DNA from: a virus
DNA length: 64,000 nt
Virus record (IMG/VR): IMGVR_UViG_3300042549_009448
Span: 1 to 64,000 of that record
Direction: 5' to 3' (one strand)
Shown here: piece after piece, positions 41,200 through 62,605 of the stretch
How positions within the stretch are numbered: the first letter of the stretch is position 1
Layout of the letters: every line of letters starts with the position of its first letter
The notes under the pieces: generated by a model
What the model saw: the letters and a program-made list of their open reading frames with translations, nothing else
Told to the model about the DNA's origin: nothing
Database searches by the model: none
Translations under genes and position numbers: made by a program

Positions 41200-41745
41200 A
41201 TGGAAATACTATCATTTAACAAATTTAAGCTACTCTTAGAAGCAGACGAGGCTGCTCCAGCGCCTGCACCGGCCGCTGAGCCTGCTCCACCGGCTGATCC
41301 ACTAGCATCAGCTCCACAATCAATGGACTTTGGAGCAGACCCAATGTCAGACCCATTAGCTGGTGCAACTTTACCACCTGACCCAAATGCGCCAGCTCCA
41401 ACCGTTGGGCAATCCGTATTTAAAGTCGTATTTTTAGACTCTGCTAAACCTTGGCACTCTAAGTACGCTGACGGCGGCGGAGTTAAAAGATACAAAGAAT
41501 ACGAAATCAATCAGGCTGATCTAGATAAATGGATCACCGATTCTAAATTAGACGCAAACAAAGAAGATCTTTCTCAAGCTGTGAGCGGTATGAAACCTAT
41601 CGAGAAAACTCTATTCGATAAATTAAAAACGGCAGCAACTTCAAATAAGCTAGGTAAGGACCGTGGCGACGTTGACGTAGATTACGATACTAAGCAAATC
41701 CCATCAACTGCTAAGCTTGACCTAATTTTTATAACATCCAAATGA
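41200..41745 (+). CDS. Putative internal head protein with capsid-targeting-like N-terminus
   Basis: A protein of 181 residues starting MEILSFNKFKLLLEADEA. An upstream in-frame ATG at 41155 lies inside the terminator and is rejected. The N-terminal pattern 'hxxFxxFxxxE' resembles the capsid-targeting peptide of T4 internal proteins (MKTYQEFIAE), which the prohead protease cuts after Glu. Residues of about 17-75 are Ala/Pro-rich, like a flexible linker. The C-terminal half (VFKVVFLDSAKPWHSKYADGG, EINQADLDKWI) is a compact alpha/beta domain that I do not recognise. The stop overlaps the start of the metalloprotease-like gene by four bases. Packaging into the head is inferred. Confidence 0.6.
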   Translation: MEILSFNKFKLLLEADEAAPAPAPAAEPAPPADPLASAPQSMDFGADPMSDPLAGATLPPDPNAPAPTVGQSVFKVVFLDSAKPWHSKYADGGGVKRYKEYEINQADLDKWITDSKLDANKEDLSQAVSGMKPIEKTLFDKLKTAATSNKLGKDRGDVDVDYDTKQIPSTAKLDLIFITSK

Positions 41746-42467
41746 TAAAGCCGTTCAAAAACTTCATATACGAATCAACGTTTGATTCTCTTGCTCATGC
41801 AATTGCCCGCGATCTTTTTGCAATCGTGAAAACCACAGCTGGCACCAAGCTAGGTAAAGCAGTTCATCAAGAACTAACTTATTCTGATCCACTCGAGTTT
41901 AGTCTAAATTTTATTGTGAAAAGAGTGGTCCAATTTAATCCAAAAAAGTCTGCTCATTTCAAAGCTCTTCCTTGGGAAGTTTTAAATTTTGAAGATAATG
42001 GATTTGCGTTAGACGCAAATGCCTACATCCCAAAAGCTTCGGAAAATGAGGATCCTGAGTTAGAGTTAGTTCTCTATATTAGTCCAGCCGCTGAGCCTGT
42101 AAGTTATGAGACGCTTGGTCATAAACTCGGTGAATACGTTAGGCACGAAATTGAACATCTGCTGCAGACCGGAATCAATCGCCGAGCCGGTCACATAATT
42201 AAAACCCCAAATAAGGTTAGGTCACAGGCTGAAACTTCATACAAATATTTTTTATTAGCTGACGAAATTCCTGCAATGGTTGCTGGAATGTATACAGCCG
42301 CCGTTAGAAAGAGAATTCCACTCGACCAAGAATTTGAAATTTATTTAAAGCCTTTTATTAAGTCAGGTTTAATAACTGACAACGAGTCCAATAAGGTCAT
42401 TAAGACCTGGATAAAATTCGCAAACCGGGTTTATCCAGATGCCAAATTTTCCAATAAAGTTTATTAA
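41742..42467 (+). CDS. HEIEH zinc metalloprotease-like protein, possible head cargo
   Basis: A protein of 241 residues. HEIEH at 135-139 (GEYVRHEIEHLLQTG) is a zincin-type HExxH motif, and LLADEIPAMVAGMY about 50 residues later could supply the third ligand or glutamate. The N-terminus MIKPFKNFIYES shares the F-x-x-F-x-x-E pattern of the gene just upstream and of two others here. That suggests it is targeted into the prohead and trimmed. Its start overlaps the preceding stop (ATGA), so the two are translationally coupled. It could act on head proteins during maturation or be injected into the host. Peptidase fold well supported; substrate unknown. Confidence 0.65.
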   Translation: MIKPFKNFIYESTFDSLAHAIARDLFAIVKTTAGTKLGKAVHQELTYSDPLEFSLNFIVKRVVQFNPKKSAHFKALPWEVLNFEDNGFALDANAYIPKASENEDPELELVLYISPAAEPVSYETLGHKLGEYVRHEIEHLLQTGINRRAGHIIKTPNKVRSQAETSYKYFLLADEIPAMVAGMYTAAVRKRIPLDQEFEIYLKPFIKSGLITDNESNKVIKTWIKFANRVYPDAKFSNKVY

Positions 42468-42470
42468 TAT

Positions 42471-42504
42471 TTAAAACCTGGTGAAGTTTTACTATATAAG
42501 ATAA
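42471..42504 (+). promoter_or_regulatory. Candidate early/middle promoter before the Hc1-like gene
   Basis: TATTTAAAACCTG, 14 bases, TATAAG. The spacing and core are the same as in the element at 36283-36318. Confidence 0.4.
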
Positions 42505-42520
42505 AAAAATCTTTGAAATT

Positions 42521-42712
42521 ATGACACCACAATGGTTAACCGAATTAAAAGAAACAGTTTCTCAACTTGAAAACGAAACTGTGAAGTTCTACGAAAAGGG
42601 CAATAAATCTGCTGGAACTAGAACTCGTAAACTTTTGCAAGATATTAAAGCAGTTTGTCAAGCCGGCAGAACACACGTTCAGGAAGCAAAGACTAACGAG
42701 CCTACCGCTTAA
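42521..42712 (+). CDS. Histone H1-like (Hc1) DNA-binding protein
   Basis: A protein of 63 residues. The central FYEKGNKSAGTRTRKLLQDIKAVCQAGR fits the short Hc1/histone-H1-like family of Bacteroidetes and Chlamydiae, which shares a GNK-(A/S)-AGTR-x-RK signature between two helices. The N-terminal helix (LTELKETVSQLENE) is acidic to neutral, and the C-terminal tail is short, without the Lys/Ala-rich repeats of chlamydial Hc1. Such proteins bind and compact DNA. Here it may coat phage DNA or act on the host nucleoid. It has its own promoter-like element and a strong terminator, so it is a single-gene unit. Confidence 0.75.
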   Translation: MTPQWLTELKETVSQLENETVKFYEKGNKSAGTRTRKLLQDIKAVCQAGRTHVQEAKTNEPTA

Positions 42713-42736
42713 TCTCTCAATAAAAAGTTCACTTTA

Positions 42737-42770
42737 AAGGGCGAGTCTAAAAAACTCGCCCTTATTTTTT
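42737..42770 (+). terminator. Strong terminator after the Hc1-like gene
   Basis: AAGGGCGAGT (42737-42746) pairs with ACTCGCCCTT (42754-42763), with a seven-base loop, followed by ATTTTTT. A perfect ten-pair, GC-rich stem. Confidence 0.9.
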
Positions 42771-42825
42771 GAAACTACTTACGGTTTTTTAGTACAATTT
42801 TATAAATTAAAAATCATTTTTGAAC

Positions 42826-43878
42826 ATGGAAGATCTATTCAATCTCAATCTCGATGATTTCTCAGGAAAATCATCATCCGCTGCTCGTAAAGTCGACGAG
42901 AACATGTACAATCCCGGTCCAGACCAAGGTCAGAACGGTATTTACAAATCGGTAATTCGTTTTATCCCATGGGTAACGGATCCGTCTAAGAGCCGCTACA
43001 AGAAGTATGCTGCTAAACTTACCAACCCTCTAACCAATGAGAAATTGTGGGTGGACTGCCCTTCAACTACGGGAGCTTCATCAATTCTTTGGACTTTAGA
43101 TCTAGAGTTGAAACGTTTGAAAAATGAGGAACCTCAAATCGTTGAGGAAATCCAAAAGTATTTCAACCGTTATTACAACTACTACTCTTGCGTTTACGTC
43201 AAGAAAGATCCTCAGTTTCCTAACTTAGAAGGTCAAATCAAAGTGTACTCATACGGTTACACAATTGATAACTTGATTCAACAAGAAATCAATCCAGAAT
43301 CTGAATTAGTAACGACTCAAAAAATCAATCCATTCTCACTTACTCAAGGTAAGGATTTTGTATTAGTTATTAAGCGTAAAACTAAAGCATGGAGAGATTT
43401 TAGCTCAAGTAAATTCATGAATGAAGTTAGTCCGTTAATCATTACTCATGCAGGAAAAGAAATTCCAGTTTCTAACGATCCTAAAGTAATGCAATTCACT
43501 AGTGAATACTTTAAAAAGAATTCACCAGACATGAGCCAATACTTCTTAAAAGAATGGACTGACTATGAGTATGAAAAGGTTGCAGACTACATTAAAGCAA
43601 TCATTCCTTACAAGCAAATCATTGATAACCTAGTTTCAAATACCAAGGATGAGAGAATGAAGAAACACTTCACCAACTCAAAACCGGTAAATCGTTCACA
43701 GGCTCCAATGGGAGAAGATATTGAATTCTCTCCAGCACCAGCTTCAAAATCTAGTGCAATGTCAATTGACCTTGATGATGATTTAGCAAGTGAACCTGCG
43801 CCGGCTGCAAAAGCTTCTCCAGCTAAATCAGCTTCAGCTAAATCTGATGACCTAGACGATTTATTCGCAAACCTATAA
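42826..43878 (+). CDS. gp32: Single-stranded DNA-binding protein, T4 gp32-like
   Basis: A protein of 350 residues; the ATG at 42826 is preferred over the TTG two codons upstream. The core YVKKDPQFPNLEGQIKVYSYG aligns with gp32's [20 protein letters not shown], and RFIPWVTDPSKSRYKKY and KTKAWRDFSSSKF fit the OB fold. The C-terminus is Ala/Pro/Ser-rich and ends in an acidic tail (SDDLDDLFANL), as in gp32 and other SSBs, for partner binding. Only two cysteines are present and the His/Cys zinc motif of T4 gp32 is missing. It coats ssDNA during replication and recombination with UvsX and gp41. A strong terminator upstream makes it the head of a new unit that runs through RNase H, GroES and the nucleotidase. 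Confidence 0.85.
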   Translation: MEDLFNLNLDDFSGKSSSAARKVDENMYNPGPDQGQNGIYKSVIRFIPWVTDPSKSRYKKYAAKLTNPLTNEKLWVDCPSTTGASSILWTLDLELKRLKNEEPQIVEEIQKYFNRYYNYYSCVYVKKDPQFPNLEGQIKVYSYGYTIDNLIQQEINPESELVTTQKINPFSLTQGKDFVLVIKRKTKAWRDFSSSKFMNEVSPLIITHAGKEIPVSNDPKVMQFTSEYFKKNSPDMSQYFLKEWTDYEYEKVADYIKAIIPYKQIIDNLVSNTKDERMKKHFTNSKPVNRSQAPMGEDIEFSPAPASKSSAMSIDLDDDLASEPAPAAKASPAKSASAKSDDLDDLFANL

Positions 43879-43893
43879 AAATATCCAAATAAC

Positions 43894-44181
43894 ATGGCAC
43901 CTAAGAAAGCAGCTCCTAAAAAAACTAATGCAGTTGAAACTCCACAGACTGAGACATCGCAACCCATTGCAACTCTACTGTCTTCAATAAGTTACACAGA
44001 CCAAGCAGATTACGAAAAATTCTTGGCAAACTTAACTCCAGAGCATGCAGTCCTTGTGCTAGTTTCATCAGCTAATCACTGTCAAGCAAAAGGAATATTT
44101 AACTTGGACGAAGCTGAGTTAATTGCAAAAGCTATTAAAACGTTGAGCAAACCTCAACCTAATGTAGAACAATCTAAATAA
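43894..44181 (+). CDS. Small unknown protein with basic N-terminus
   Basis: A protein of 95 residues, MAPKKAAPKKTNAVETPQ followed by a helical domain (YTDQADYEKFLANLTPEHAVLVLVSSANHCQAKG). The Lys/Ala/Pro start could bind nucleic acid. It lies 15 bases after gp32 and seven before RNase H and so is probably co-transcribed in a replication unit. I do not recognise a family. Confidence 0.7.
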   Translation: MAPKKAAPKKTNAVETPQTETSQPIATLLSSISYTDQADYEKFLANLTPEHAVLVLVSSANHCQAKGIFNLDEAELIAKAIKTLSKPQPNVEQSK

Positions 44182-44188
44182 AACTAAC

Positions 44189-45298
44189 ATGAATTTAATC
44201 ATTGATGGAAATGCCTTTCTTAACGTAGCTGTTAGCATAGCCAAGAACATCTTAGCTAATGACAAACGAGTGGGCGAAAAGTATTACGTCTCTGATCTGT
44301 TAAACGATGACAAATTCATGCTTAAACAGGCAAGTAAGGATACTTTCAGGGCTTTTTCAGTGAACTACCTTGGAAGTATTCTTGCTCCGTTTAAGGAAAA
44401 TATCAGTTCCGTATTTTTCGTATTTGACTCTAAAAGTTGGAGAAAGAAATACATCAAGGAGCACTTTGAAGCTCACGGTGAGGGAGACTTCTCTTACAAA
44501 GGTCAACGTAAGTACGATGATAAAATCTATCTCTTTTTTGAATACTTCCAAACTGAAATCTTAAACACAATTTCTGAAGAATACGGAATTGTTATTAACC
44601 GGGTTCCTGGAGCGGAAGGTGATGATTTAATCGCCTATATTTGCGAAAACCTAAGAGAAGACATCTGCATTTGGTCAGTAGACAAGGACTTAACTCAATT
44701 ACTTGAAAGCAGCAAACGTAAAGTAATCCTAATAATGCCAAAGCAAATGACTAAGTATAAAAAGATCTACACTACTGAAGATTTCGGTCAGGTCCAAGAA
44801 GCTGAGATTAATCTATTCAATTTTGACATTGAATCAATCGACAATTCGGCAATCGTTAATATAATTAACGATTTGACCCAAAAGGATTATATACATCTAA
44901 CGGTTGATCCAACACTAGACATTCTAACTAAGTGCTTAGGTGGAGATTCTTCAGATAATATTCCAAGAGTTCATCCAAAAATGACTGCTTCCAAGGTAAC
45001 CAAGATAATCGATCACTTGCGTGAATCGTATGACTGGAAAGAGATCACTCCTCTAATCGATTCAGGTGATCAAGGGTTCATTGATATTTTACGTGAAGTT
45101 ACATGTGACGTGCTAAAGATAAAGGAACCTGGTGAATGGCAGACGATTGAGAATAACCTTACTCGTAATAAGACGCTAATTCGATTAAGCACTGCCTTTT
45201 TTCCAACTGACGTATTAGAATCAATAAAACAAAGTGTTGACTTAACAGCAAGACGTAAATTTAATTATTACAAATTTAAAAAAAATTATAAGAACTAA
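44189..45298 (+). CDS. rnh: RNase H / 5'-3' exonuclease of the FEN family (T4 rnh-like)
   Basis: A protein of 369 residues. MNLIIDGNAF gives the first Asp, NRVPGAEGDDLIAYI the acidic cluster of 5' nucleases, and WSVDKDLTQLL the next Asp. KCLGGDSSDNIPRV matches the GGDxSDNIP helix-3-turn motif. T4 RNase H removes RNA primers from lagging strands, and this enzyme should do the same next to gp32. An extra block at about 200-235 and a basic tail (RRKFNYYKFKKNYKN) are notable. The stop shares one base with the GroES start. Confidence 0.9.
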   Translation: MNLIIDGNAFLNVAVSIAKNILANDKRVGEKYYVSDLLNDDKFMLKQASKDTFRAFSVNYLGSILAPFKENISSVFFVFDSKSWRKKYIKEHFEAHGEGDFSYKGQRKYDDKIYLFFEYFQTEILNTISEEYGIVINRVPGAEGDDLIAYICENLREDICIWSVDKDLTQLLESSKRKVILIMPKQMTKYKKIYTTEDFGQVQEAEINLFNFDIESIDNSAIVNIINDLTQKDYIHLTVDPTLDILTKCLGGDSSDNIPRVHPKMTASKVTKIIDHLRESYDWKEITPLIDSGDQGFIDILREVTCDVLKIKEPGEWQTIENNLTRNKTLIRLSTAFFPTDVLESIKQSVDLTARRKFNYYKFKKNYKN

Positions 45299-45627
45299 TG
45301 AGCATAGACGTTCAACAAGGATTTATTCCATTATTTGAAAGACTCCTAATTCTACCAGACAGCGTAGAACTAAAAACTGAGACAGGTATTCTACTTTCAG
45401 TAGATGCACGTAAACGTCCAAATACTGGCAAAGTAGTCGGATTAGGTCACCTAGTCTCAGACAATTCAAAATGCCCAGTTAAAGTTGGGGATAGAGTTCT
45501 TTACCAAAGATACTCAGGTCTTGACGTAAAATGGGATAGTCAAAGCTACCACCTAGTAATGGCAAACGATCTCTTAGCCATAATCAATAAGGATCAAGAA
45601 ACCCAATTTGAATTAAATGAGCAGTAA
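45298..45627 (+). CDS. groES: Co-chaperonin GroES-like
   Basis: A protein of 109 residues with the GroES fold signature: IPLFERLLILPDSVELKTETG at the start, a mobile-loop-like GILLSVDARKRPNTGKVVGLG, then VKVGDRVLYQRYSGLDVKWD and YHLVMANDLLAII. T4 gp31 does this job with host GroEL; here a phage GroEL is also present at 30245. It should cap the chaperonin while large phage proteins fold. It overlaps the gene before by one base and the nucleotidase by 11 bases. Sure of the fold; whether it prefers phage or host GroEL is unknown. Confidence 0.9.
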   Translation: MSIDVQQGFIPLFERLLILPDSVELKTETGILLSVDARKRPNTGKVVGLGHLVSDNSKCPVKVGDRVLYQRYSGLDVKWDSQSYHLVMANDLLAIINKDQETQFELNEQ

Positions 45628-46234
45628 TCTTAAAAGCTTCACTCAATTCGTGAACGAAGAAAAATCAAATGACTTTAGGATCTTTTGTGATCTTGATGGA
45701 GTACTAGTTGATTTCAATAGAGGGTTCATTGAACTAGCTAGCAATACTGAAAAGCTTTCGCCTAAAGCCTATGAAAAGGAGCATGGTAAAGATTCACTAT
45801 GGCCGCTAATCGATGAGTTAGGCGAATCCTTCTGGGAAAATCTACAATGGATGAAGGACGGTAGGGAACTATGGGACTATCTTAAGCAATACGATCCAAT
45901 AATTTTGTCCTCTCCAAGTAAACACCCAGGCTGTTTTACCGGAAAGGCTAAATGGGTAAAGCTTCATTTAGGAATTGACCAAGATCCAGTAACGGACCCT
46001 CAAAATTTTACAAAGGACACCCGATTTATCTTAGCTAATCACAAGCACGATTACGTTGAGCCTGCAAAAACTCTATTTAAAAAGGAACCTCTGTTAATCG
46101 ATGATTTCAATAAAAAACTAGAAAAATGGACTAATGCTGGCGGAATTGGAGTTTTACATAACGATTCGACTGATACAATTCGAGTGGTTGAGGAAATTCT
46201 AGGCCCAGCTGAAGACTACAGTTATCGGACTTAA
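45617..46234 (+). CDS. 5'(3')-deoxyribonucleotidase-like HAD hydrolase with capsid-targeting-like N-terminus
   Basis: A protein of 205 residues with HAD motifs: FCDLDGVLVDF at 23-33 (nucleophile Asp25, Asp27), PIILSSPS for motif II, a Lys in KAKWVKLHL, and LLIDDFNKK for motif IV. Such enzymes dephosphorylate deoxynucleoside monophosphates. The first 14 residues (LKSFTQFVNEE) form the F-x-x-F-x-x-E pattern seen on other genes here, absent from ordinary nucleotidases. This suggests that the enzyme is directed into the head or is a cleavable fusion. It ends the gp32 transcription unit, before a bidirectional terminator. Confidence 0.8.
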   Translation: MSSNLKSFTQFVNEEKSNDFRIFCDLDGVLVDFNRGFIELASNTEKLSPKAYEKEHGKDSLWPLIDELGESFWENLQWMKDGRELWDYLKQYDPIILSSPSKHPGCFTGKAKWVKLHLGIDQDPVTDPQNFTKDTRFILANHKHDYVEPAKTLFKKEPLLIDDFNKKLEKWTNAGGIGVLHNDSTDTIRVVEEILGPAEDYSYRT

Positions 46235-46273
46235 ACCGAGTGGTGGAACGCTGACCGACCGGTCGGCCCTAAA

Positions 46274-46303
46274 TAAAAAAGGACTCGAATGAGTCCTTTT
46301 TTT
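46274..46303. terminator. Bidirectional terminator between nucleotidase and tail sheath
   Basis: A6 then GGACTC (46281-46286), loop GAAT, GAGTCC (46291-46296), then T7. It works on both strands between the convergent genes. Confidence 0.9.
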
Positions 46304-46322
46304 ATTAAGTAGCGTTTGTCTT

Positions 46323-49300
46323 TTAGAATGATGGAGTAAATCCAGTAGAGTTTGAAGCAAGTTGACCGCCAGCTCTTGTGATTGTGATACGGTTGATGAA
46401 CTTGTGAATACCTCTTGGAAAATCAACAACTATATCAATGATACCCGCGTTATTTTCAAGAACTTCAGTTCCGTTGTTTGAATCATCAAATACTACATCG
46501 AATGTTGAGATACCTCTAGCGTCTTGAACCGCCGTTAGGTAGTTCTTAACCAGAGTTTTAACTCTTAATCGGGTAGTAGTATCATTGAAGTCAAATAGGA
46601 AGTTCAACAAGATTCTTTCAATATCTCTTTCAATCGTTACTAGAGCTTCTCTTACGTGAACGTTATTAAGAGCTGATTTAACTTTTTGGTATCCAGTGTT
46701 GTTTGAGAAAATCATAACACCAAAACCTCTACGTCTAACGATCAAGTTGAAACCTACTGGCTCCAAGAAGTCTCTATCATCATTAGTTAAGTCATACTCA
46801 ACTCCTGTAATTTCTGGTTCAGAGATTATACCTCTTTTTCCTGCTACGATTGAGAAAGTATTTCCACTAGAGTACTTCTTCATGTAAGTATTTGCAACAT
46901 AGGCAGCCGGTGGAATTGATTTGTTTCTACCTCCTTCGAAGATTACTAAGTTAGGCATGAAATATGCAGAATAAGATGCTATTGAAATACCGCCTTTCTC
47001 TCCAGTTGCAAATCCGAATGTGTAAGATGGATTAGATGATAAGTTACCACCAGTTGAAATAAATTCAGCTGATACTAAATTAGTGTTAACATCAATGAAG
47101 CTTGGATCAATTGATTTCTCATATTGTGCAAAAGATGGAGCATTTAGGATAGCTAAAGCTTTTCCGTGATTTGCTGCAAGTTGAGTAAGTTGTTGTTTAG
47201 AAGAGCTCCAAATTTGACCTTCATAAGAATCAATAATGTAACGGTAATCTAGAGTTTCATTATCGGCTAAGGTAGAAGCAATGTTTGTATCGTTGAACAT
47301 GTAGTCCAAAATAGTGTTTTGACGATCAGCTGTTCCGTTAGGATACAATCCGCTTTCGTCAACTTGCATTGCTGGTACATAAAATCCTCTAATATCAGTT
47401 ACGTAGTTTTTAATTCCTTTGTAAACGATAAGACCTGCATTTCCGCCTAATGCTGATGGAGTAATATCAATACCTGTGATATTTGAATCAGCCGCAGTAT
47501 CAACAGTAACCGTGTATTTTAGAGTTTTAAGAGGTAAGTTAGAAGGACCGTAGTTTACAGTAACCAGTTGACTGTAAATTGATTTAATTTTTAGTGCACG
47601 ATTACGAATAACCGGGTCTCCGTTAGCATCTTTTACAATACCAGCTTTAACCAATTGTCCAACCTTAAAGAATGAATCTATTAAAGTTCTCTTAGTTGAA
47701 TCGTATGTGTATCCGGTGTTTGCAACTTCTTTCTTAGCGGTATTTCCATAAAGTGAAGGATTAAGCGTAAATACTACTTGATTTGGAGAAAAGAATCTGT
47801 AATTGTTAGCTCCAGTAGTGATGAAGTAGTTAGAATCAGTTAAGTCAAAAGTCGCTTTAAATTGAGTAACTGTAGTTGATTTGATATGTAGATAAGCTGG
47901 TGCTGGACTAGCGATACCGTCAGTTATGTACTCAACGTCAACTTGGTTTTGGAATGCTGCATCTTGATAAGCATAGAATTCAATGTACTTGATTTGACCG
48001 GTGTTTTGAGTTTTAACCAAACCGTCAGTCGATAAGTAAAGAGTAGTAGGCGTACCTGATGGAGCTGTCAAGTAGTGCAAAGTATCTCCAGTTTTAATGA
48101 AGCCGTTTGCCCATGCAGTATACAATTTACTTCCAATGGTTGCAACTATATACTTGTCACCAGTTGGTAAATTAGATGGACCTGCCAGCTTTTGAATTGT
48201 GTACGTTTCGCCAGCAGCATAAGTTAAATTATAATCAGTGTCATCTAATGCGAAATAGTACTCGTATCCAGCTGATTTTCTATAGCTTAATACATCGATT
48301 AGTGCAACTGGATCAACTGTGCTGATTCCGTTATCTACTGTGTAAAGTTGCTTAGTACCGTCAGTTGTGTTAAGTTCATCAAAACCATAACCTACTAGAT
48401 CAATTCTTTGCTGTGCACTAGGCTCAGTTGAACTACCGCTACTGAATGTAGCATTAGTTAAGTCAATCATGTCAACTTTCTTGTAGTCAACTGCGCAAAA
48501 TACTCCAGATTGACTAAACTTTCTGTTAAATAGTGAATCAATTGAAGCAATCGCTCCAGTTAAATCTCTGAAATCCGGAATCATTGCTCCGATCGTACGA
48601 TTTACTACTGAAACTTCTCTCAATGAAAGAAAATCATTCATCTTTGCAAGTTCAATGCCCGATGGATTAAAGAACTGTCCGTAAATTGGATCTTTTGAAA
48701 GTCTAACGTAATCTGTCCAATCTCCTTCAACTACCGCGACTTCAACAAAGTAATCTGCTACATAATCGTCTGGGTGTAAGAATTCTGGAATTTCTACCTT
48801 ATCTCCTAAAAGTTTGTAGTATTCCTGAACTTTAATGTCGTATCCAGTAGTATCAGCTACTCTAACCCATGTAGTAACAGCTTTCTTAGAAAGGTTAACT
48901 AAACTTAAAAGTTTATTTGCATCTCTGTCTGCGGTTCCGGTTGCTGGGAATGAGTCTCCTAACTGAATGTTTTTGTACTTGTTAACGGCGTCAACATCAG
49001 CAAACCATAGTTTCTGAGTATTGTAGAATCGTGAAAGACTATCTTGATAAAGATTAGCAGCCCAAGTTGAATTATTTGATGCCGATTCAGTATTGAATGT
49101 TGTAAAGTATGCAACGTCCGTATCTGCAACTGGTAAAAGATTCAAAGCGTAAACTGGGCCTTGTCTCAAAGCTACTTCTATAGTTCTATGAAAGAAGCTT
49201 CCGTTCTTTTCTAGTTTAGAATCATTTTCTCCGTATACTGTTATTAATGAACGTAAGTCATTGATTAGTACTACTGAGTTGATAGGTCCCTTTTTGCTGG

Positions 49301-49415
49301 TTCCTATTACAAGTCTTCCCGTTGATAAAGGTAAGCTGAGACTGGTGCTTTCGTCAATTTCGACTGTGTAGACACCGCTTGACTTGAATCGGTTCAGATT
49401 TAATTTTTCTGCCAT
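46323..49415 (-). CDS. gp18: Contractile tail sheath protein (T4 gp18-like)
   Basis: A protein of 1030 residues. The N-terminus (SSGVYTVEIDESTSLSLPLSTGRLVIGTSKKG) matches the myovirus sheath start. The C-terminal 170 residues (GYQKVKSALNNVHVREALVTIERDIERIL, LRVKTLVKNYLTAVQDARGI, DIVVDFPRGIHKFINRITITR) match the conserved sheath domain that forms the inter-subunit mesh. The protein is longer than T4 gp18 (659 residues) because of central insertions of about 350 residues, probably surface domains. It is a single-gene unit with two late-promoter-like motifs and a terminator. Its partner tail tube lies at 62626, not adjacent as in T4. Confidence 0.93.
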   Translation of the reverse strand: MAEKLNLNRFKSSGVYTVEIDESTSLSLPLSTGRLVIGTSKKGPINSVVLINDLRSLITVYGENDSKLEKNGSFFHRTIEVALRQGPVYALNLLPVADTDVAYFTTFNTESASNNSTWAANLYQDSLSRFYNTQKLWFADVDAVNKYKNIQLGDSFPATGTADRDANKLLSLVNLSKKAVTTWVRVADTTGYDIKVQEYYKLLGDKVEIPEFLHPDDYVADYFVEVAVVEGDWTDYVRLSKDPIYGQFFNPSGIELAKMNDFLSLREVSVVNRTIGAMIPDFRDLTGAIASIDSLFNRKFSQSGVFCAVDYKKVDMIDLTNATFSSGSSTEPSAQQRIDLVGYGFDELNTTDGTKQLYTVDNGISTVDPVALIDVLSYRKSAGYEYYFALDDTDYNLTYAAGETYTIQKLAGPSNLPTGDKYIVATIGSKLYTAWANGFIKTGDTLHYLTAPSGTPTTLYLSTDGLVKTQNTGQIKYIEFYAYQDAAFQNQVDVEYITDGIASPAPAYLHIKSTTVTQFKATFDLTDSNYFITTGANNYRFFSPNQVVFTLNPSLYGNTAKKEVANTGYTYDSTKRTLIDSFFKVGQLVKAGIVKDANGDPVIRNRALKIKSIYSQLVTVNYGPSNLPLKTLKYTVTVDTAADSNITGIDITPSALGGNAGLIVYKGIKNYVTDIRGFYVPAMQVDESGLYPNGTADRQNTILDYMFNDTNIASTLADNETLDYRYIIDSYEGQIWSSSKQQLTQLAANHGKALAILNAPSFAQYEKSIDPSFIDVNTNLVSAEFISTGGNLSSNPSYTFGFATGEKGGISIASYSAYFMPNLVIFEGGRNKSIPPAAYVANTYMKKYSSGNTFSIVAGKRGIISEPEITGVEYDLTNDDRDFLEPVGFNLIVRRRGFGVMIFSNNTGYQKVKSALNNVHVREALVTIERDIERILLNFLFDFNDTTTRLRVKTLVKNYLTAVQDARGISTFDVVFDDSNNGTEVLENNAGIIDIVVDFPRGIHKFINRITITRAGGQLASNSTGFTPSF

Positions 49416-49443
49416 CGCTTTTTGCGTATTATTTTGAAGTTAT

Positions 49444-49453
49444 TTATTTATCG
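49444..49453 (-). promoter_or_regulatory. T4-late-like promoter for tail sheath, proximal
   Basis: The minus strand reads GCGATAAATAAATAACTTC, 28 bases before the ATG at 49415. ATAAATAA occurs twice in register. Confidence 0.65.
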
Positions 49454-49503
49454 CATTAAGTCCAAATTCGCACTTTTTGAACTTGGGCTAGTTGCGTCTT
49501 TAG

Positions 49504-49513
49504 TTATTTATCA
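49504..49513 (-). promoter_or_regulatory. T4-late-like promoter for tail sheath, distal
   Basis: The minus strand reads GGTTGATAAATAACTAAAG, 88 bases before the ATG. This is the closest match to the extended consensus. A tandem pair would suit a gene needing high expression. Confidence 0.6.
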
Positions 49514-50080: not shown

Positions 50081-51457
50081 ATGATTATAAGTACCGAATT
50101 TCACACGGAAGACTCAACGCTAGCCATTTCGTATTATAAGCCCGATGGAACAATTGGATTTATGAAAAAACCAATTTTGCCACATGACCTTTACAACTGG
50201 AATCTAACTCCAACTCCGACTGAACACCGTAACTGGGATGGAAGATTTCTAAAAAAAGTTCAAGGTAAATGGTTAAGCCGTTTTAGACTTGAAGAATTGA
50301 CCCAAACTCGATTAGATCAAACTGAGTTAGCTTCAATTTATTCAGATGATAGTCCGAAAAAGTATTATCTGGATATTGAGATTCAGCTATTGTCAACCGA
50401 TTTCCCAGATCCAAATAAAGCCGCGATGCCCGTTAATTTAATAACGTTTGTGAATGAGGATAATATTTGTTTTGTAATGTCAACCATGAAGAACTTAGAG
50501 ACTCCAGTAATTTCTCAACTACAAGATGAAGTTAACGATTACTTTAAGGCTCACGGTCAAGACTTTACTCTTAAGTATCTGTTTTTTGAAACTGAGGTTG
50601 AGATGATGACCGTGTTCTTTCATAAAGTTCTGCCAAAAATTCCATTCTTAACAGGTTGGAACGTAATCGGATTTGACTGGTTGTACTTAATTAATCGTTG
50701 TAAGAATTTAGGAATTGAGCCAATGGCAAAAATGCCTTCTAAAACATTGATTGGTAAAGCCAAAATGCCAGTTCACATGGGACTTCTGGATTACATGGAA
50801 GTTTTCATGAATACCAAGCCGTATAAGGTTGTTGAAAACTATAAGTTGGAATACATCGCAAACCTTGTGCTTGGAACTACTAAATTGCATAGTGAATATG
50901 CAACAATGATAGAAGCTCAACAAGATGTTGAAAACTTCATTAAGTACAACATCATTGATACGATTCTTATTAAATTAATAGAAGACAAGCTTGGTCTACT
51001 TGATGTAGCCTTTGCAATCTCTAAATTTGCAAGAGTCGATGTTTCTAAAGTATTCTCAGCAGTATTCATTACTGAAACCTTAATGTGTAGAGAATTCTTG
51101 GAACGTGGTTTATACATGGCAAACGATCGAAGAGATCTTGAAGAAGATGCAACTTACGATGGTGCATACGTTGCAAAACCTGAACCCGGATACTATAAGT
51201 ACGTATCATGTTTTGACTTTGCGTCAATGTATCCTAACATTCAAATCCAATTTAATATTTCGCCGGATGCGTATTTAGGAAAAAGTAAACCTGATCAAGA
51301 ACCGACTGAAGATCAAGTTCTAACTAAAAACAATACTCTATTTACTAAAAAGTTCGATTCAGCAGCTCGCACTATATTAACCCGTTTGTATAACGGTCGT
51401 GTGGACACAAAGAACGAAATGAAAAAATTAGAAGAGCAACTAGACGATGCTAAATAA
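50081..51457 (+). CDS. gp43: Family B DNA polymerase, N-terminal half only (split gp43)
   Basis: A protein of 458 residues that follows T4 gp43 from the N-terminal domain through the proofreading exonuclease: DIE at 98-100, TGWNVIGFDWLYLINR (ExoII) and YNIIDTILI (ExoIII). It continues into polymerase motif A (SCFDFASMYPNIQIQFNISPDAYLG, like gp43's [23 protein letters not shown]). It then stops after about 70 more residues. Motif B (NSLYG), motif C (DTDS) and the thumb are absent, and neither downstream gene has them. The stop overlaps the next gene by 11 bases, so this is a designed end, not a random frameshift. The missing half must be encoded elsewhere in the genome if the enzyme is active. 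Confidence 0.88.
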   Translation: MIISTEFHTEDSTLAISYYKPDGTIGFMKKPILPHDLYNWNLTPTPTEHRNWDGRFLKKVQGKWLSRFRLEELTQTRLDQTELASIYSDDSPKKYYLDIEIQLLSTDFPDPNKAAMPVNLITFVNEDNICFVMSTMKNLETPVISQLQDEVNDYFKAHGQDFTLKYLFFETEVEMMTVFFHKVLPKIPFLTGWNVIGFDWLYLINRCKNLGIEPMAKMPSKTLIGKAKMPVHMGLLDYMEVFMNTKPYKVVENYKLEYIANLVLGTTKLHSEYATMIEAQQDVENFIKYNIIDTILIKLIEDKLGLLDVAFAISKFARVDVSKVFSAVFITETLMCREFLERGLYMANDRRDLEEDATYDGAYVAKPEPGYYKYVSCFDFASMYPNIQIQFNISPDAYLGKSKPDQEPTEDQVLTKNNTLFTKKFDSAARTILTRLYNGRVDTKNEMKKLEEQLDDAK

Positions 51458-55804: not shown

Positions 55805-55818
55805 AAAACACAAATACT

Positions 55819-56493: not shown

Positions 56494-57606
56494 ATGAAAC
56501 TCACAAATATTCGAAAAATAACGTTAGTTGGAGATCTTCATCTTGGTATAAAAAACAATTCAGTAGAATGGCTTCAAATACAAAAGGACTTTCTATTGGA
56601 CTTTTTATTAACAAAGATCGATGAAGATTTTGACGAAGACCGAGACATCCTCTTTTTAGAAGGGGACATTTTCCATTCTAGAGAATCAATTAATGTTAGA
56701 ATTCACGATGAGGCCTTAACCATATTTAAGGCATTGGCTAAGAAGTTTAAGCGCGGAATCTACATCATTATTGGAAACCATGATGTGTATTACAAAGATA
56801 GAAATGCAGTTCACTCACTTAAGTCAATATCTCATATCGCTGACAACATTCATGTTTTTGAAAATCCTGAAATTCTAACAATCAACGGAACTCATAATTT
56901 CTTAATGTTACCTTGGGTTGAGGACGTTCGCCGAATAAATCAAATCATAACTGATCATCAAGATCTTTGCGAGTATATTGTTTGCCATGCAGACATTAAG
57001 GGACTCCGTTTCAACAAATGGACAAAGGTCGAACACGGAATTGAGGTGGATATGCTAGGCTCATATAAAAGAGTTTATGCTGGACACATTCACCATCGTC
57101 AAGAATTTAAAAACGTACTCTACACCGGCACTCCATATCAAATGGATCGAGGCGATAGAGACAATGTTAAAGGCTTTTATGAATTGACCCTTACTAAGGA
57201 CTCAATTGCTGAAAGATTCATTGAGAATACACAATCACCAGTTTACAAGAAGTTTGATATTTACGAATTGCTAGAGATGCCAGTAGAACAAGTGGTCTCA
57301 AACCTAAATAATGCTTTTGTTGATGTAATGATAAGCGTTAATTTTGTAAATAAATTTCCAGTTACCAGATTCATTGAAGCTGTCTCTAAGTCAACTCACA
57401 GAAAGATTGAATTCTTTACTTACGTTGACCAAGTTAAAGAAGACGCGACCGGCTCAAATTTTAATCCAGAAGATCAATTCAACATAATCGATATTTTCAA
57501 GAGCTTTATTAAATCAAAGGCGTATTCTCAAACATTTAAGACTGACCTTGCCCGAAAGTTCGTTGAAATTCATAACTTAGTAAAACAGGATGGATCACAT
57601 GAGTAA
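56494..57606 (+). CDS. gp47: Recombination nuclease subunit, T4 gp47/SbcD/Mre11-like
   Basis: A protein of 370 residues with the calcineurin-type phosphoesterase motifs in order: VGDLHLG at about 12-18, FLEGDIFHSR, IIIGNHDVYY, VCHAD and YAGHIHHR. It forms with gp46 the ATP-driven nuclease that resects ends to begin recombination-dependent replication. The 3' end overlaps the SET-like gene by 17 bases. Confidence 0.93.
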   Translation: MKLTNIRKITLVGDLHLGIKNNSVEWLQIQKDFLLDFLLTKIDEDFDEDRDILFLEGDIFHSRESINVRIHDEALTIFKALAKKFKRGIYIIIGNHDVYYKDRNAVHSLKSISHIADNIHVFENPEILTINGTHNFLMLPWVEDVRRINQIITDHQDLCEYIVCHADIKGLRFNKWTKVEHGIEVDMLGSYKRVYAGHIHHRQEFKNVLYTGTPYQMDRGDRDNVKGFYELTLTKDSIAERFIENTQSPVYKKFDIYELLEMPVEQVVSNLNNAFVDVMISVNFVNKFPVTRFIEAVSKSTHRKIEFFTYVDQVKEDATGSNFNPEDQFNIIDIFKSFIKSKAYSQTFKTDLARKFVEIHNLVKQDGSHE

Positions 57607-58090
57607 AGCTCCAAAAATCTTAAATACCATTTGCGTAAAGCCAATCAACGATAAGGAGTTTGGCGTATTTACGAATGCTCCACTATATCGAGATTCAATC
57701 GTTGAATTTTGTGCCTGGTTGCCAGTAAGCCAAAGGATTCAAATCCTAATTGACAAGAACGATGCAAGCCTAGGTCAAAGACTATTCATTAACCCAGACG
57801 GCATTGAAAAGGAGAGACAATTCGCAGCTAAGATTGCCGATCTTGATTTACAGGAGAGACTGGACCGAGGCCTAATAACTACTGAACAATTTAAAGCGCT
57901 TCTGATTGAGGTTGCCAATCCAACTAAACTATTGAGTGTGGTTTCGCATGCAATCCTGTTGGGATTCGGGTCTCTTTATCGTCGAAGCGACATGCCTAAC
58001 ATTACTTGGGAATACGATAGTGATTCTAAGTTGTATAAGTTTTATACAACTCAGGATATCGCTGCAAACCGCGAACTTACATACTTTTAA
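57590..58090 (+). CDS. SET-domain-like protein between gp47 and gp46
   Basis: A protein of 166 residues (or 163 from the ATG at 57599). The N-terminal FGVFTNAPLYRDSIVEFC at 24-41 matches the 'GxGVFA ... I-x-x-G-x-x-I' entry of SET domains. SHAILLGFGSLYRRSDMPNITWEYD at about 119-143 matches the 'N-H-S-x-x-P-N' segment with the first residues changed (YRRSDMPN). IAANRELTYF at the end matches 'I-x-x-G-E-E-L-T-x-x-Y'. SET proteins methylate lysines with S-adenosylmethionine. The Asn-His pair of classical enzymes is not conserved, so activity is uncertain. Overlap with gp47 and a two-base gap to gp46 show co-translation in the recombination operon. Confidence 0.6.
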   Translation: MDHMSKAPKILNTICVKPINDKEFGVFTNAPLYRDSIVEFCAWLPVSQRIQILIDKNDASLGQRLFINPDGIEKERQFAAKIADLDLQERLDRGLITTEQFKALLIEVANPTKLLSVVSHAILLGFGSLYRRSDMPNITWEYDSDSKLYKFYTTQDIAANRELTYF

Positions 58091-58092
58091 TC

Positions 58093-59754
58093 ATGAAGAT
58101 ACAAGAATTTTCCTTTAGAAACATCTGCTCATACGGCAATAAATTACAAACATTCAAGTTTACAGACGAGCCTCGACTAATCCTAGTTCAGGGTAAAAAC
58201 GGTAGTGGCAAATCTTCAATCTCGGATGCTTTGACTGTGTCACTATACGGTAAATCTGCAATCCGCAAGACCAAGGAAATCCCTAATCGAATCAACAAGA
58301 ATGCCTATACTCAAATTAAATTCGTTACCGGAAATGGTCAACTTATTGATATCGAAAGAGGCCTTGAACCTAACTTTTCCAAGCTTTCGATTGATGGAGT
58401 TGAATATAACTTGCCTGATAAACGTAGAGTCGATGAATTTATTGAAGACGAATTGACTAAGATACCGTTTAACGTTTTCTCAAATACTATTAGCTTATCA
58501 GTTAATGATTTTAAGAGCTTTGTTAAACTTAGTCCAGCCGATAAACGTCAAATCATCGATAAGATATTTGGACTAGATATTGTTAATGATATGGCTAAGG
58601 TTGCAAAGGAAGAGTCTAAAAAGATTAAGGGCGATATTGCACCTCTTGAATCAGCTATTTCGAGTAACCAACGACTATTAGAATCCTCAATCTCTCAACT
58701 TGAAGCCCTAAAGTCTGAAATAAAAACGAGTAATGATGCAAAAATTTCAGAATTAAACGAGGCACTTGAGCAGTTAGCTACTGATAAAAAAGAGGCGCAT
58801 ACCGTAGCAAGTAGTTTTTCAGGTAAAATTTCTGAAATTAGGCAGAGTGTTAGAGCTGAACAGGATAAACTGAGCACAGTTAGAGTTAACATTTCTGAAA
58901 TTCAAAAGAAGTTGGACATTTACAATAAGAACAAGTGTCCGCATTGTCTTTCTGATTTAACTGATGAGGTTCATTCTCAAATCAAAGATAAGCTTGTTGC
59001 AAAAAAAACTGAACAGGAATCAGCGTTTCCTGCAATTTCAGAAAGAATTAAATCTCATGAAAAAGACTTATCGTTAGTAGAAACTGAATCTAGCGAAGTA
59101 AAGGGCAAGTACTATCAAATTGATGCTCAAATAACTTCGGTTAAGCGTGAAATTGCTGATCTAAGCAGACAGGGTAACCGGACATCAGACACGCATTTAA
59201 CTGAGGTCATTAACAATATCAAGGCAGAGATCCAGACATCTAGCGCTAGTCTATCTGAAAGACAGGAAAAGTTAAAAGTTTCCCAAGAGATGGAAATGAT
59301 CTTATCAGATAACGGTATGAAACAGATGCTAATGAGTCAAATCATTCCATTGTTGAATAAAAAAATACTAAAGACTGCTAAAGTCTTAGAGTTTAAATTT
59401 TCATTCGAGTTTGATCTAGAGTTCAATCCAATAATAACTCACTTAGGCATGCAAGTTTCGCCAGACTCATTATCCGCTGGTGAACAAAAGAAAATGAATC
59501 TAATTGTTTTACTCTGCATATTAGAGCTAATTAAATTAAAGCACAACAAGGTGAATCTTCTCTTCTTGGACGAGGTATTCTCATCATTAGACGTTGATTC
59601 AATATTTAGAGTAGTTGACCTTTTGAAAACTTTTGCCAAAAAGTACAATATGACAGTATTCGTGATTTCTCATGATCCTTTACCTGAAGAGTATTTTGAT
59701 ACCAAGATCCAGGTTGAAAATACGGATCATTTTTCTGACCTAACAATCGTTTAG
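58093..59754 (+). CDS. gp46: Recombination nuclease subunit, T4 gp46/SbcC/Rad50-like
   Basis: A protein of 553 residues. The N-terminal ATPase half has Walker A GKNGSGKSS at about 34-42. A long coiled coil is interrupted at about 282-285 by a zinc hook, CPHC, and the coil returns to about 430. The C-terminal half has the ABC signature SLSAGEQKKMNLIV, Walker B LLFLDEVFSSLD and the His switch VISHDPLP. Partner of gp47. Small for an SbcC but typical for phage gp46 (T4: 560). Confidence 0.95.
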   Translation: MKIQEFSFRNICSYGNKLQTFKFTDEPRLILVQGKNGSGKSSISDALTVSLYGKSAIRKTKEIPNRINKNAYTQIKFVTGNGQLIDIERGLEPNFSKLSIDGVEYNLPDKRRVDEFIEDELTKIPFNVFSNTISLSVNDFKSFVKLSPADKRQIIDKIFGLDIVNDMAKVAKEESKKIKGDIAPLESAISSNQRLLESSISQLEALKSEIKTSNDAKISELNEALEQLATDKKEAHTVASSFSGKISEIRQSVRAEQDKLSTVRVNISEIQKKLDIYNKNKCPHCLSDLTDEVHSQIKDKLVAKKTEQESAFPAISERIKSHEKDLSLVETESSEVKGKYYQIDAQITSVKREIADLSRQGNRTSDTHLTEVINNIKAEIQTSSASLSERQEKLKVSQEMEMILSDNGMKQMLMSQIIPLLNKKILKTAKVLEFKFSFEFDLEFNPIITHLGMQVSPDSLSAGEQKKMNLIVLLCILELIKLKHNKVNLLFLDEVFSSLDVDSIFRVVDLLKTFAKKYNMTVFVISHDPLPEEYFDTKIQVENTDHFSDLTIV

Positions 59755-59809
59755 GCTAACCTTTTTTCATTTTCTTAGTATTATATTTGAATAGTATTAT
59801 TTCCGAATT

Positions 59810-60703
59810 ATGATTACATTTACAGGGCACACTTTTGCACAAGCATATAAACATTCAATAGAATATCTATTGGCAAACGGCATGGTTAACAATGCTAGGG
59901 GCACAACAAATAAAGAATTACTTGATGTTGCGATAGTAGTTGAGGATCCAACTCAGTGTCTATATGATAATGAAGTTAGAGGTTCTCAGCAAAAGTATAT
60001 TGCTGCCGAATTTTTATGGTACTATGCTGGCCGAAATGATGTAGCTTTCATTTCAAAATGGGCAAAGTTCTGGGAAACCATTCAAAACCCAGATGGCACA
60101 GCAAACTCAGCATACGGCAACCTGATTTTCAATGAAAAGAACCAATACAGGTTTACTCAGTACCAATGGGCAATTCAAAGTTTAATGAATGATTCTAGTA
60201 CAAGACAGGCGATTCTTCATTTTAACAAACCCGCTCACCAGTATTTGACCAATAAGGATTTTGTATGTACCATGTATGCAAATCTGCATATTCGTCAAAA
60301 TAAGTTATACATGAGCGTCTACATGAGAAGTAATGATGCAATTTGGGGTACTCCAACTGATGTTGCATTCTTTTGCTCTTTACAAATGCAGATCCATGCT
60401 CACCTAAAGGAAATTTATCCGGATCTTGAACTTGGTACCTATACTCATGTTGCAAATTCGTATCATGTTTACGATAGGCATTATGATCTAGCTCAAAGAA
60501 TGCTTGCTTCCGATTTTATTCCAGTTACATTACCTTCGATAACTACTGATTTGATAGACATAGACGGATCTTCAAGTCAAGATTTTAATATTGTGTTCGC
60601 AGCGTCCACTGGAAAAACTGATGAACTTATACTTTTTCAACAAGATAACGATCTTTTGAAATGGATTTTTGAAAAACTAAAAGAAGATAACGATGTCATT
60701 TAA
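59810..60703 (+). CDS. gp42: Thymidylate-synthase-family enzyme, predicted dCMP hydroxymethylase (T4 gp42-like)
   Basis: A protein of 297 residues of the ThyA superfamily. The general base is Glu67 (AAEFLWYYAG), the catalytic nucleophile is Cys153 (KDFVCTMYANLHIR), and phosphate/ring contacts lie in MRSNDAIWG at 172-180 and NSYHVYDRHY. Thirty-one residues after the Cys stands Asp184 (GTPTDVAFF). Thymidylate synthases have Asn at this spacing; T4 dCMP hydroxymethylase has Asp179, also 31 after its Cys148, and the same DFMCT and MRSND words. Asp selects cytosine over uracil. The product is therefore more likely hydroxymethyl-dCMP than dTMP, which fits the gp56 homologue. A thymidylate synthase with an unusual Asp is the alternative. 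It overlaps the dCMP deaminase gene by 11 bases. Confidence 0.75.
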   Translation: MITFTGHTFAQAYKHSIEYLLANGMVNNARGTTNKELLDVAIVVEDPTQCLYDNEVRGSQQKYIAAEFLWYYAGRNDVAFISKWAKFWETIQNPDGTANSAYGNLIFNEKNQYRFTQYQWAIQSLMNDSSTRQAILHFNKPAHQYLTNKDFVCTMYANLHIRQNKLYMSVYMRSNDAIWGTPTDVAFFCSLQMQIHAHLKEIYPDLELGTYTHVANSYHVYDRHYDLAQRMLASDFIPVTLPSITTDLIDIDGSSSQDFNIVFAASTGKTDELILFQQDNDLLKWIFEKLKEDNDVI

Positions 60704-61166
60704 TTTAACTAGAGCACAGCGCCAACACCTAATCGATATTGCCTACATCAAGATGGCCCAAACCTGGTCAGGTCTTTCTCATGCAATTCGTAAAAAGGTT
60801 GGAGCCCTAATCGTAAAGAATAACACAATCATTGCTGATGGCTACAATGGAACCCCTTCCGGTTTTGAAAATGAATGTGAGATTGCGATAAACCATGAGG
60901 ATGGCTCATTTAAAGAATATCAAACTAAATGGTATGTTTTGCATGCCGAGTCAAATGCCTTAGCCAAGGTTGCCAAATCAACACAAAGTAGCGACGGAGC
61001 TACTCTCTATATTACTTACTCTCCATGCACAGATTGCAGCAAATTAATTTTACAGGCAGGAATCAAGCGAGTTGTGTATTTAGAAGAATACCGAGATATT
61101 GCCGGCCTTGACTTCTTAAGAAGGGCTGGCATTGAAGTTAAAAAAATTGACCTAGAAACCCTATGA
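60693..61166 (+). CDS. cd: Deoxycytidylate deaminase
   Basis: A protein of 157 residues with the zinc-dependent deaminase motifs HAE at 84-86 (VLHAESNAL) and PCTDC at 111-115, and a substrate segment KKVGALIVKNNTIIADGYNGTPSGF. It converts dCMP to dUMP for thymidylate synthesis. Like T4 Cd it sits with the gp42-like gene, and the two overlap by 11 bases. A further gene follows with a four-base overlap. Confidence 0.92.
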   Translation: MSFNLTRAQRQHLIDIAYIKMAQTWSGLSHAIRKKVGALIVKNNTIIADGYNGTPSGFENECEIAINHEDGSFKEYQTKWYVLHAESNALAKVAKSTQSSDGATLYITYSPCTDCSKLILQAGIKRVVYLEEYRDIAGLDFLRRAGIEVKKIDLETL

Positions 61167-61564
61167 TCGATATATTAGAAAGAAGGCTTGAAATTGTTTT
61201 TGTAAGAGATCAAAAACAATTCATTCAGGCTTTTAATAAAAAGCAGAAATGCGATTATTTACTGAATGTAAATAAAATAATAAAGGAAAAGTTCGACCAT
61301 GAAATTCTTGTGCCAAATAAAATCCAGGCATTCCTAATAAACTATGAGATCAAGAAATTAATTGATAAAGCAATCAATGTTAGGAATCGTAAGTACAATC
61401 GAATAATTTACGTTAATGCCGGCCTCAGTGTCAGCAATATAAACAACACAATCAAGTTTCTAAATACTGCGTATGCAACAATAGAATTCGTTCCTAAATT
61501 AATAGACGGAGATTTTGAAATTGGAGAACTTTCTGGAGTAGAGACAATAAAAAAGGGGCATTAA
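61163..61564 (+). CDS. Small unknown protein at end of the replication cluster
   Basis: A protein of 133 residues with a Rossmann-like or alpha/beta look (IDILERRLEIVFVRDQKQFIQAF, KYNRIIYVNAGLSVSNINNTIKFL). No motif recognised. Its start overlaps the deaminase stop by four bases, and its stop lies inside the loop of the terminator at 61551-61573. Confidence 0.6.
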   Translation: MIDILERRLEIVFVRDQKQFIQAFNKKQKCDYLLNVNKIIKEKFDHEILVPNKIQAFLINYEIKKLIDKAINVRNRKYNRIIYVNAGLSVSNINNTIKFLNTAYATIEFVPKLIDGDFEIGELSGVETIKKGH

Positions 61565-61573
61565 GCCCCTTTT
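61551..61573. terminator. Bidirectional terminator at the convergent end of the replication cluster
   Basis: AAAAGGGGC (61551-61559), loop ATTAA, GCCCCTTTT (61565-61573). Perfect nine-pair stem with A- and T-runs on both sides. Confidence 0.92.
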
Positions 61574-61593
61574 GAAGTTTTATTAGATTAGAA

Positions 61594-61932
61594 TTACATT
61601 TTAGATTTCTCAACCTTTCCTGAATAAATTAATGCATCTTCTGGTTTGTTCTGGTCATTAACCGCAACAATGTCAAAATCTCCATCCTTATCCGCTTTTG
61701 GCGAAATCGAAATGAGTGCACCAGGGTTGATGCTCGGATTAGTTGATTTGATCACATTAAAAGAAATCATCTCCTTATTTGTGAATTCACTATCACTAGT
61801 TCCTTCAACTTCAAAAGATTCTCCGTCAACTGTGATGTCTAGAGTATATGACCCAGTCTTAGTAGGCTCCTCAGTGTTTTGAGCAGTCTCCATAGCTTCC
61901 TCAGCTAACCATTGTTCAAATAACTTGATCAT
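61594..61932 (-). CDS. Small head-associated protein with capsid-targeting-like N-terminus
   Basis: A protein of 112 residues. The start MIKLFEQWLAEEAME has the 'F-x-x-(F/W)-x-x-E' pattern with a plausible cut after LAE, as in T4 internal proteins. Ile, Gly and Asp-rich beta strands follow (YTLDITVDGESFEVEG, GALISISPKADKDGDFDIVAV), reading as a small immunoglobulin- or OB-like domain. It lies seven bases after the acidic protein gene, downstream of the tail tube gene. Packaging inferred from the N-terminus and position. Confidence 0.55.
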   Translation of the reverse strand: MIKLFEQWLAEEAMETAQNTEEPTKTGSYTLDITVDGESFEVEGTSDSEFTNKEMISFNVIKSTNPSINPGALISISPKADKDGDFDIVAVNDQNKPEDALIYSGKVEKSKM

Positions 61933-61939
61933 TCTCTAA

Positions 61940-62605
61940 TTATGAGTTTTCTTCGTCTTCGTTGTTTTCTGCGTCGTCTCCGATAGCGTCATCATCTTCT
62001 TCATTTTCGTCATCATCGCTTTCTTCTGTGCAAAGTTTCTTAACGGCTGCGCATACTAGGTCGCAAATGTCTTCTTTTGTCATTTCCATCTTTTCAGCGA
62101 TATCTTCAATGACATCGTTAATGTCATCTCCAAATTCTTCCATTAAAGTGGCTAATTGTTCTTCGTCGATTACTGGCTCATCAGACGGCATATCGTCGTC
62201 AGACAGCATAGAGTCATCGGTTTCTGGCATTTCTTCTTCTGCCTCAGCGAACATGTTAAAATCTTCGTTAACGAATTGGTCAAAGCGAAGTATTCTTCCT
62301 TCTTCAACAGCGCTAACCGTTGCAATTGTTTGTTTTGCGTACATTGGGTTAAATGGTTTTTTCTTTGCCGTTCTTGAAATTAGGTCACGAGTTACCGCCT
62401 TCCATGTTGGGTCATAATTGTGGTTGAATTTTCCACCTTCAAAATCGGCATTTCGGTCAATAACTCGTTGATAGCCTTTTAGTGTTTCTCGTTTTGATGT
62501 ATCAAAGTCTTTCTTTGATGTTGGACCTCCGAAACTAGGTTTCTTAGGATCCATGTAATCATCCATCGAAGGATTACGTCGGTCTTTAGTGTTGAACATG
62601 TCCAT
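61940..62605 (-). CDS. Acidic protein, possible prohead core or scaffold component
   Basis: A protein of 221 residues. The first 95 are basic to neutral (KDRRNPSMDDYMDPKKP, TRDLISRTAKKKPFNPMY). At about 104-115 comes RILRFDQFVNED, an internal copy of the F-x-x-F-x-x-E pattern. The rest is very acidic, with a helical part (LATLMEEFGDDINDVIEDIAEKM) and a poly-Asp/Glu end. It follows the tail tube gene by 20 bases. Acidic core proteins are common in T4-like proheads; this identity is inferred from composition. Confidence 0.55.
   Translation of the reverse strand: MDMFNTKDRRNPSMDDYMDPKKPSFGGPTSKKDFDTSKRETLKGYQRVIDRNADFEGGKFNHNYDPTWKAVTRDLISRTAKKKPFNPMYAKQTIATVSAVEEGRILRFDQFVNEDFNMFAEAEEEMPETDDSMLSDDDMPSDEPVIDEEQLATLMEEFGDDINDVIEDIAEKMEMTKEDICDLVCAAVKKLCTEESDDDENEEDDDAIGDDAENNEDEENS

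Follow-up and report, generated by a model that had tools for sequence, protein, structure and literature searches.

Detailed knowledge of capsid targeting is limited to a few proteins of bacteriophage T4. The T4 internal proteins IPI, IPII and IPIII carry the same N-terminal peptide of about 10 residues on unrelated bodies (Mullaney and Black 1996; reviewed in PMC9026906), and mutations in IPIII have assigned residues 4 and 7 to targeting and residues 8 and 10 to processing, with Asp at residue 10 preventing the cut and leaving targeting intact (PMC9026906). A similar peptide, here referred to as the tag, occurs at the N-terminus of many proteins encoded by the uncultured virus record IMGVR_UViG_3300042549_009448 (180,030 bp; the parent contig, G000), the first 64 kb of which form the stretch analysed here (the window). 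The parent contig was compared with whole contigs from three relatives (217-270 kb), and these four genomes represent a family of very large uncultured phages. As in the T4 system, a gp21-family protease and predicted late expression accompany the tag. However, T4 has a handful of tagged genes, compared with 20-35 per genome here; Asn is preferred before Glu, unlike in the T4 capsid-targeting sequence; and protease and scaffold form one fusion, the scaffold part consisting of tag-like repeats that are missing from T4 gp22. The peptide is very likely a greatly expanded T4-type capsid-targeting propeptide that is used on a very large scale.

Other described systems share part of this arrangement. 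In phiKZ and SPN3US, many head proteins, a gp21-related protease that cuts after Glu and delivery with the DNA are likewise found, and the propeptides of inner-body and ejection proteins are cut at [SA]-x-E; these propeptides are, however, mostly longer than 100 residues and have no short tag in common (PMC5694885), whereas the tags described here are short and come with a T4-type late promoter and a protease-scaffold fusion that set these phages apart from phiKZ and SPN3US. In P1, the short N-terminus of DarB can take a large protein, and also a reporter, to the inside of the head, but the Dar proteins have no shared consensus and more than nine residues are needed (PMC9024508). In cyanophage P-SSM2, the N-termini MKSFSQFLTE and MKSFKQFLEE show the same motif, but only about two to four such genes were found in 200 kb. 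No earlier report of such a tag in huge phages was found in the literature open without subscription.

The original prediction for the window named five genes with the pattern h-x-x-F-x-x-(F/W)-x-x-E, all of which were recovered, namely:

41200-41745, plus strand: Pro/Ala-rich tagged protein of 181 residues, with the ATG at 41200 as its start; longer variant tag MEILSFNKFKLLLE (41200-41241)
41742-42467, plus strand: tagged protein of 241 residues with an invariant HExEH, MIKPFKNFIYES; tag MIKPFKNFIYE at 41742-41774
45617-46234, plus strand: tagged 5'(3')-deoxyribonucleotidase-like HAD protein of 205 residues, MSSNLKSFTQFVNEE; tag NLKSFTQFVNE at 45626-45658
61594-61932, minus strand: tagged small protein of 112 residues, MIKLFEQWLAEE; tag MIKLFEQWLAE at 61900-61932
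61940-62605, minus strand: acidic protein, probable prohead core protein; internal ILRFDQFVNE at 62264-62293 (residues 105-114)

When the pattern was sought over the full genome, the tag proved to be genome-wide and is not confined to five genes. The fixed pattern [LIVMFY]xxFxx[FWYL]xxE, counted if starting in the first 30 residues, occurs in 13 genes of the parent contig compared with 1.7 when N-termini are shuffled (maximum 7 of 300), and in 16, 12 and 22 genes of the three relatives compared with 2.7, 1.8 and 2.3, respectively. Reversed and shifted control patterns gave no N-terminal excess in the four genomes. A weight matrix gives scores of at least 10 to 119 N-termini in the four genomes, against 2.1 expected from internal windows, a count that is somewhat optimistic as the matrix was refined on N-termini, the fixed-pattern counts being lower. 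Tagged genes make up 9-12% of the open reading frames (ORFs) of at least 60 residues per genome. The consensus tag, M-(K)-[HM]-I-K-x-F-x-Q-[FW]-[ILV]-N-E-[SA], ends about 10-16 residues from the protein start and favours [ILV]-N-E, with Glu at the predicted cut position in 84 of the 119 tags and Asp in 10. Tags are conserved in orthologues whose bodies have diverged to 36-60% identity. Codon use within the tag is close to the genome background, and selection therefore appears to act on the peptide rather than on the DNA.

These counts bear on the possibility that the likeness to T4 is superficial and reflects either an amphipathic N-terminus that is common where phage genes are AT-rich or an effect of translation start acting on the DNA. 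The genomes are indeed AT-rich, and Lys, Ile, Phe, Asn and Glu are common in them; nevertheless, chance or composition is ruled out by the shuffles and control patterns, and a translation-start effect by the near-background codon use. The Tenacibaculum phage PTm1, which has a marine flavobacterium as host, also shows no clear excess of tags, and a superficial likeness is considered extremely unlikely. The proposed resemblance to T4 MKTYQEFIAE is real and spans the four positions that matter in IPIII, as the consensus keeps exactly these (F/Y at 4, F/W at 7, I/L/V at 8 and E at 10), and a matrix trained without T4 places IPII and IPIII second and third among 282 T4 ORFs. As a separate observation, T4 gene 61.1 (T4 18966-19130) encodes a product of 54 residues that starts with the capsid-targeting-like MKTFKEFIKED.

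A gp21-like protease, which the original prediction had suggested looking for, is encoded just outside the window. Its ORF (contig 66909-68900) adjoins the capsid gene (65168-66889) and matches PF03420 at 68448-68786 (E 7e-12) and the PHROG head maturation protease (E 1.9e-38); a gp21-family protease is present in 13 of 15 related contigs. The N-arm of the major capsid protein contains an invariant AGS[LI]NE/[AS] in the four genomes (the slash marks the predicted cut), where T4 gp23 has FLTE/A. This predicted cut site and the tag consensus share their final three residues, [ILV]-N-E, and [LIV]NE[AS] is found elsewhere only 0.23 times per 1000 residues. The protease ORF runs on into a scaffold region of nine to ten 14-residue repeats (e.g., GIKYSSYIAESLNE), in which the motif Y-S-x-Y-[LIV]-A-E resembles the core of the tag. 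The four protease ORFs contain 27 copies of the core aromatic-x-x-aromatic-aliphatic-x-Glu (10 per 1000 residues), compared with 64 copies (0.26 per 1000) in the interiors of other proteins, which total 249,592 residues; N-termini account for 72. Variants with one residue more or fewer between the aromatics were not found in the scaffold repeats. Also in the head region, a protein of 533 residues (G000 87535-89136, minus strand) has a C-terminal part, PGSIGSMGPITPP...GSGDKF, that resembles a short stretch of the capsid N-arm, and it ends in LGFADFIKEQNN, a tag-like motif at the C-terminus.

These matches also speak to the alternative that the tag is a binding handle for another late site of assembly or host takeover (e.g., the phage's own GroEL/GroES, a replication-assembly compartment or the membrane) and is unrelated to head packing. 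About a tenth of all genes are tagged, which is many for a head payload; a MoxR-type AAA ATPase and a metallopeptidase without an obvious virion role are among them; and the phage encodes GroEL-type (window 30245-31828) and GroES-type (45298-45627) chaperonins. However, the tag agrees at its end with the predicted cut site of the capsid protein and in its core with the scaffold repeats, and the blind ranking of T4 proteins picked out internal head proteins; a handle for a site other than the head is thus regarded as very unlikely.

The cargo bodies had been called unrelated from the window, and across the four genomes the bodies behind the tag indeed sort into dozens of separate groups; a single duplicated gene family was rejected on the same grounds. 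The tag is a movable unit. Recognisable bodies include deoxyribonucleotidase, NUDIX, VanY, phage lysozyme, CHAP, amidase, AAA ATPase and DUF2201 metallopeptidase, one further body has a weak nucleotidyltransferase match, and many are without recognisable identity. The tags could instead be true prohead-core anchors on proteins that act as core or assembly factors and are then destroyed or expelled, with no delivered payload. The T4 protease cuts the core proteins gp22, gp67 and gp68 to fragments (PMC5694885), and the tagged proteins include several small, acidic or Pro/Ala-rich ones that match no enzyme. Against this, ordinary, intact enzymes stand behind several of the tags (NUDIX, lysozyme, VanY, amidase, CHAP and nucleotidase), and the relatives differ in which cell-wall hydrolases sit behind the tag, while the GH19/peptidoglycan-binding protein, the likely endolysin, is untagged; destroyed or expelled core factors are an unlikely explanation. 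In a separate run of genes (G000 122498-125876, minus strand), the tagged MoxR-type AAA ATPase, the DUF2201 metallopeptidase (with a weak tag) and a Gly/Ser-rich protein that resembles a VWA domain by eye form a chaperone-like trio in an unexpected place.

The motif ATAAATA[ACT] within 110 bp upstream of a gene was taken as a late promoter. It lies directly upstream of 59 of the 119 tagged genes and of 149 of 964 untagged genes (odds ratio 5.4, p 1e-15); where the upstream gap is at least 25 bp, the counts are 38/41 and 100/358, respectively (p 3e-16). From these upstream sequences, the tagged genes look late-expressed. The elements of late expression and the T4-like structural genes in the window are:

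28141-28560, minus strand: T4 gp55-like late sigma factor (phrog_234, late sigma transcription factor, E 9.7e-18)
41184-41192, plus strand: T4-type late promoter TATAAATAA, 7 bp upstream of the start codon (ATG) at 41200, read directly in the sequence
46323-49415, minus strand: tail sheath protein (phrog_34521, E 1.9e-85), with ATAAATA upstream; marks the T4-like structural set
62626-63210, minus strand: tail tube protein (phrog_45, E 3.7e-8), with the late promoter ATAAATA 28 bp upstream

The tail tube gene heads a gene run that includes 61940, which comes directly after it, and 61594. Another promoter-like motif, TTAGTATAATA, differs from the late promoter; it is found upstream of many genes in all four genomes and is rare before tagged genes.

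In the favoured explanation, tagged proteins would be made late in infection from the T4-type late promoters, and their N-terminal segment (aromatic-x-x-aromatic-aliphatic-x-Glu) would bind the assembling prohead core, pictured as a long helical protease-fused scaffold of 14-residue repeats that share the tag core. During maturation, the protease would cut after Glu in the capsid protein, the scaffold repeats and the tags; the core would be cleared, and the cargo would stay free in the head, presumably to be delivered with the DNA. A more specific proposal is that the cargo tag copies or mimics one scaffold repeat, being packed as a stand-in scaffold unit and freed by the same protease, and that the head serves as a general protein container with about a tenth of the genes, including interchangeable cell-wall hydrolases, as payload; the chances that this holds seem evenly balanced. 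The modular route for packing enzymes into the head for injection, as put forward in the original prediction, is supported by the likeness of the tag to the T4 peptide, the protease gene and the predicted capsid cut site, with injection into the host a presumed step.

Several observations weigh against the capsid-targeting explanation. The phages are uncultured and known here from their genes alone, from which we infer packaging, cleavage, head location, scaffold binding, injection and what each cargo does. The payload would comprise some 30 kinds of protein, far more than in T4. The matrix-based counts are inflated to the extent noted above, and 35 of the 119 tags, including the 10 with Asp, are without Glu at the predicted cut position; of these (about 30%), some may be packed uncut and some may be false. 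In this genome, the gene at 45617 lacks its own late promoter; ATAAATA is found directly upstream of its orthologues in G005 and in the relative G007. The predicted protease-scaffold structure is mostly helix in the repeat region at low confidence (mean predicted local distance difference test score, pLDDT, of 50), and this model was set aside as too uncertain to use. Lastly, the co-occurrence of tags and repeats rests on few lineages, the ORFs of the Lak phage among them being called with the standard code.

With regard to these lineages, tag and repeats go together in other huge phages, which counts in favour of capsid targeting: LR756504 has twelve repeat cores in the homologous ORF and many tags, and LR756500 has degenerate repeats and many tags. 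PTm1 has no scaffold repeats and no clear excess of tags. Lak phages are reported to reassign TAG, and in the part of Lak-A1 that was examined neither repeats nor tags were detected with ORFs called by the standard code, which makes it a weak control. The tag as a trait of all Bacteroidota-type T4 relatives was rejected, as clear enrichment was seen neither in PTm1 nor, with the weakness of that control, in the examined part of Lak-A1. In T4, a few tags exist in the absence of such scaffold repeats, and the repeats are therefore not required. Among the best matches in phage records, no cultured phage with a repeat-bearing scaffold was found.

The genes at 41200-42467 are a late unit of two inside a nucleotide-metabolism block, with their own promoter after nrdA. 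The first gene reads MEILSFNKFKLLLEAD; its ORF could begin at 41155, but the start was placed at 41200 because the late promoter falls inside this longer reading. A hairpin-like inverted repeat (41157-41173) follows nrdA upstream of the promoter. The 41200 protein has a longer variant of the tag, in which the Glu comes three residues later, and the G007 orthologue bears the canonical tag MLKNFNSWLTEQ; Pfam and PHROGs searches with this protein gave no match over the cut-off. The tag of the 41742 protein is kept in 13 orthologues and is missing from the G007 orthologue and from a 35% homologue (L214). Of its earlier description as a zinc protease, the invariant H-E-x-E-H stands, but Pfam, PDB sequence and fold searches returned nothing in support (best PDB match E 0.27; no sequence relative found), and it is a candidate metallopeptidase on the HExEH motif alone. 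Its AlphaFold model is of moderate quality (pLDDT 72), residues 1-9 being among the least confident (pLDDT < 50).

The call of a nucleotidase at 45617 is supported (phrog_2643, E 9.6e-24), with a match that begins at residue 18, right behind the tag, which is conserved among orthologues. In the 61594 protein, the tag is conserved although body identity drops to 36%. The internal copy in the 61940 protein had been counted with the cargo pattern; as a cargo tag it was rejected, given its position at residue 105 and the location of the gene in the head/tail block, and a cut site in a core protein is the better reading. By analogy with T4 gp67/gp68, this is probably a prohead core protein with a cut site. 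Its core motif is kept in orthologues, with FENYMFE in the distant G007 group.

Some further features of the genome were seen. The coding sequence of the family B DNA polymerase is divided between two plus-strand genes, at window 50081-51457 and at contig 100564-102192, which are separated by about 49 kb. The topoisomerase subunit A gene (G000 163232-165991, minus strand) is broken by an intein, the halves of which lie in separate ORFs with a DUF7487-match ORF between them. Between head and baseplate genes, about ten ORFs are inserted on the opposite strand (G000 69950-79101, plus strand), several of which resemble glycosyltransferases or methyltransferases by eye.

Taken as capsid-targeting propeptides, the tags mean that the protein payload brought into the host by these phages is probably unusually large. 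With a tag that is short and easily read, sequence alone is enough to predict what entire huge-phage genomes pack into the head, and dozens of proteins of unknown function become likely candidates for delivered effectors. Recognition of the tag through its likeness to the scaffold repeats is a concrete idea that can be tested, and the tag suggests a simple route for putting chosen proteins into large phage heads.

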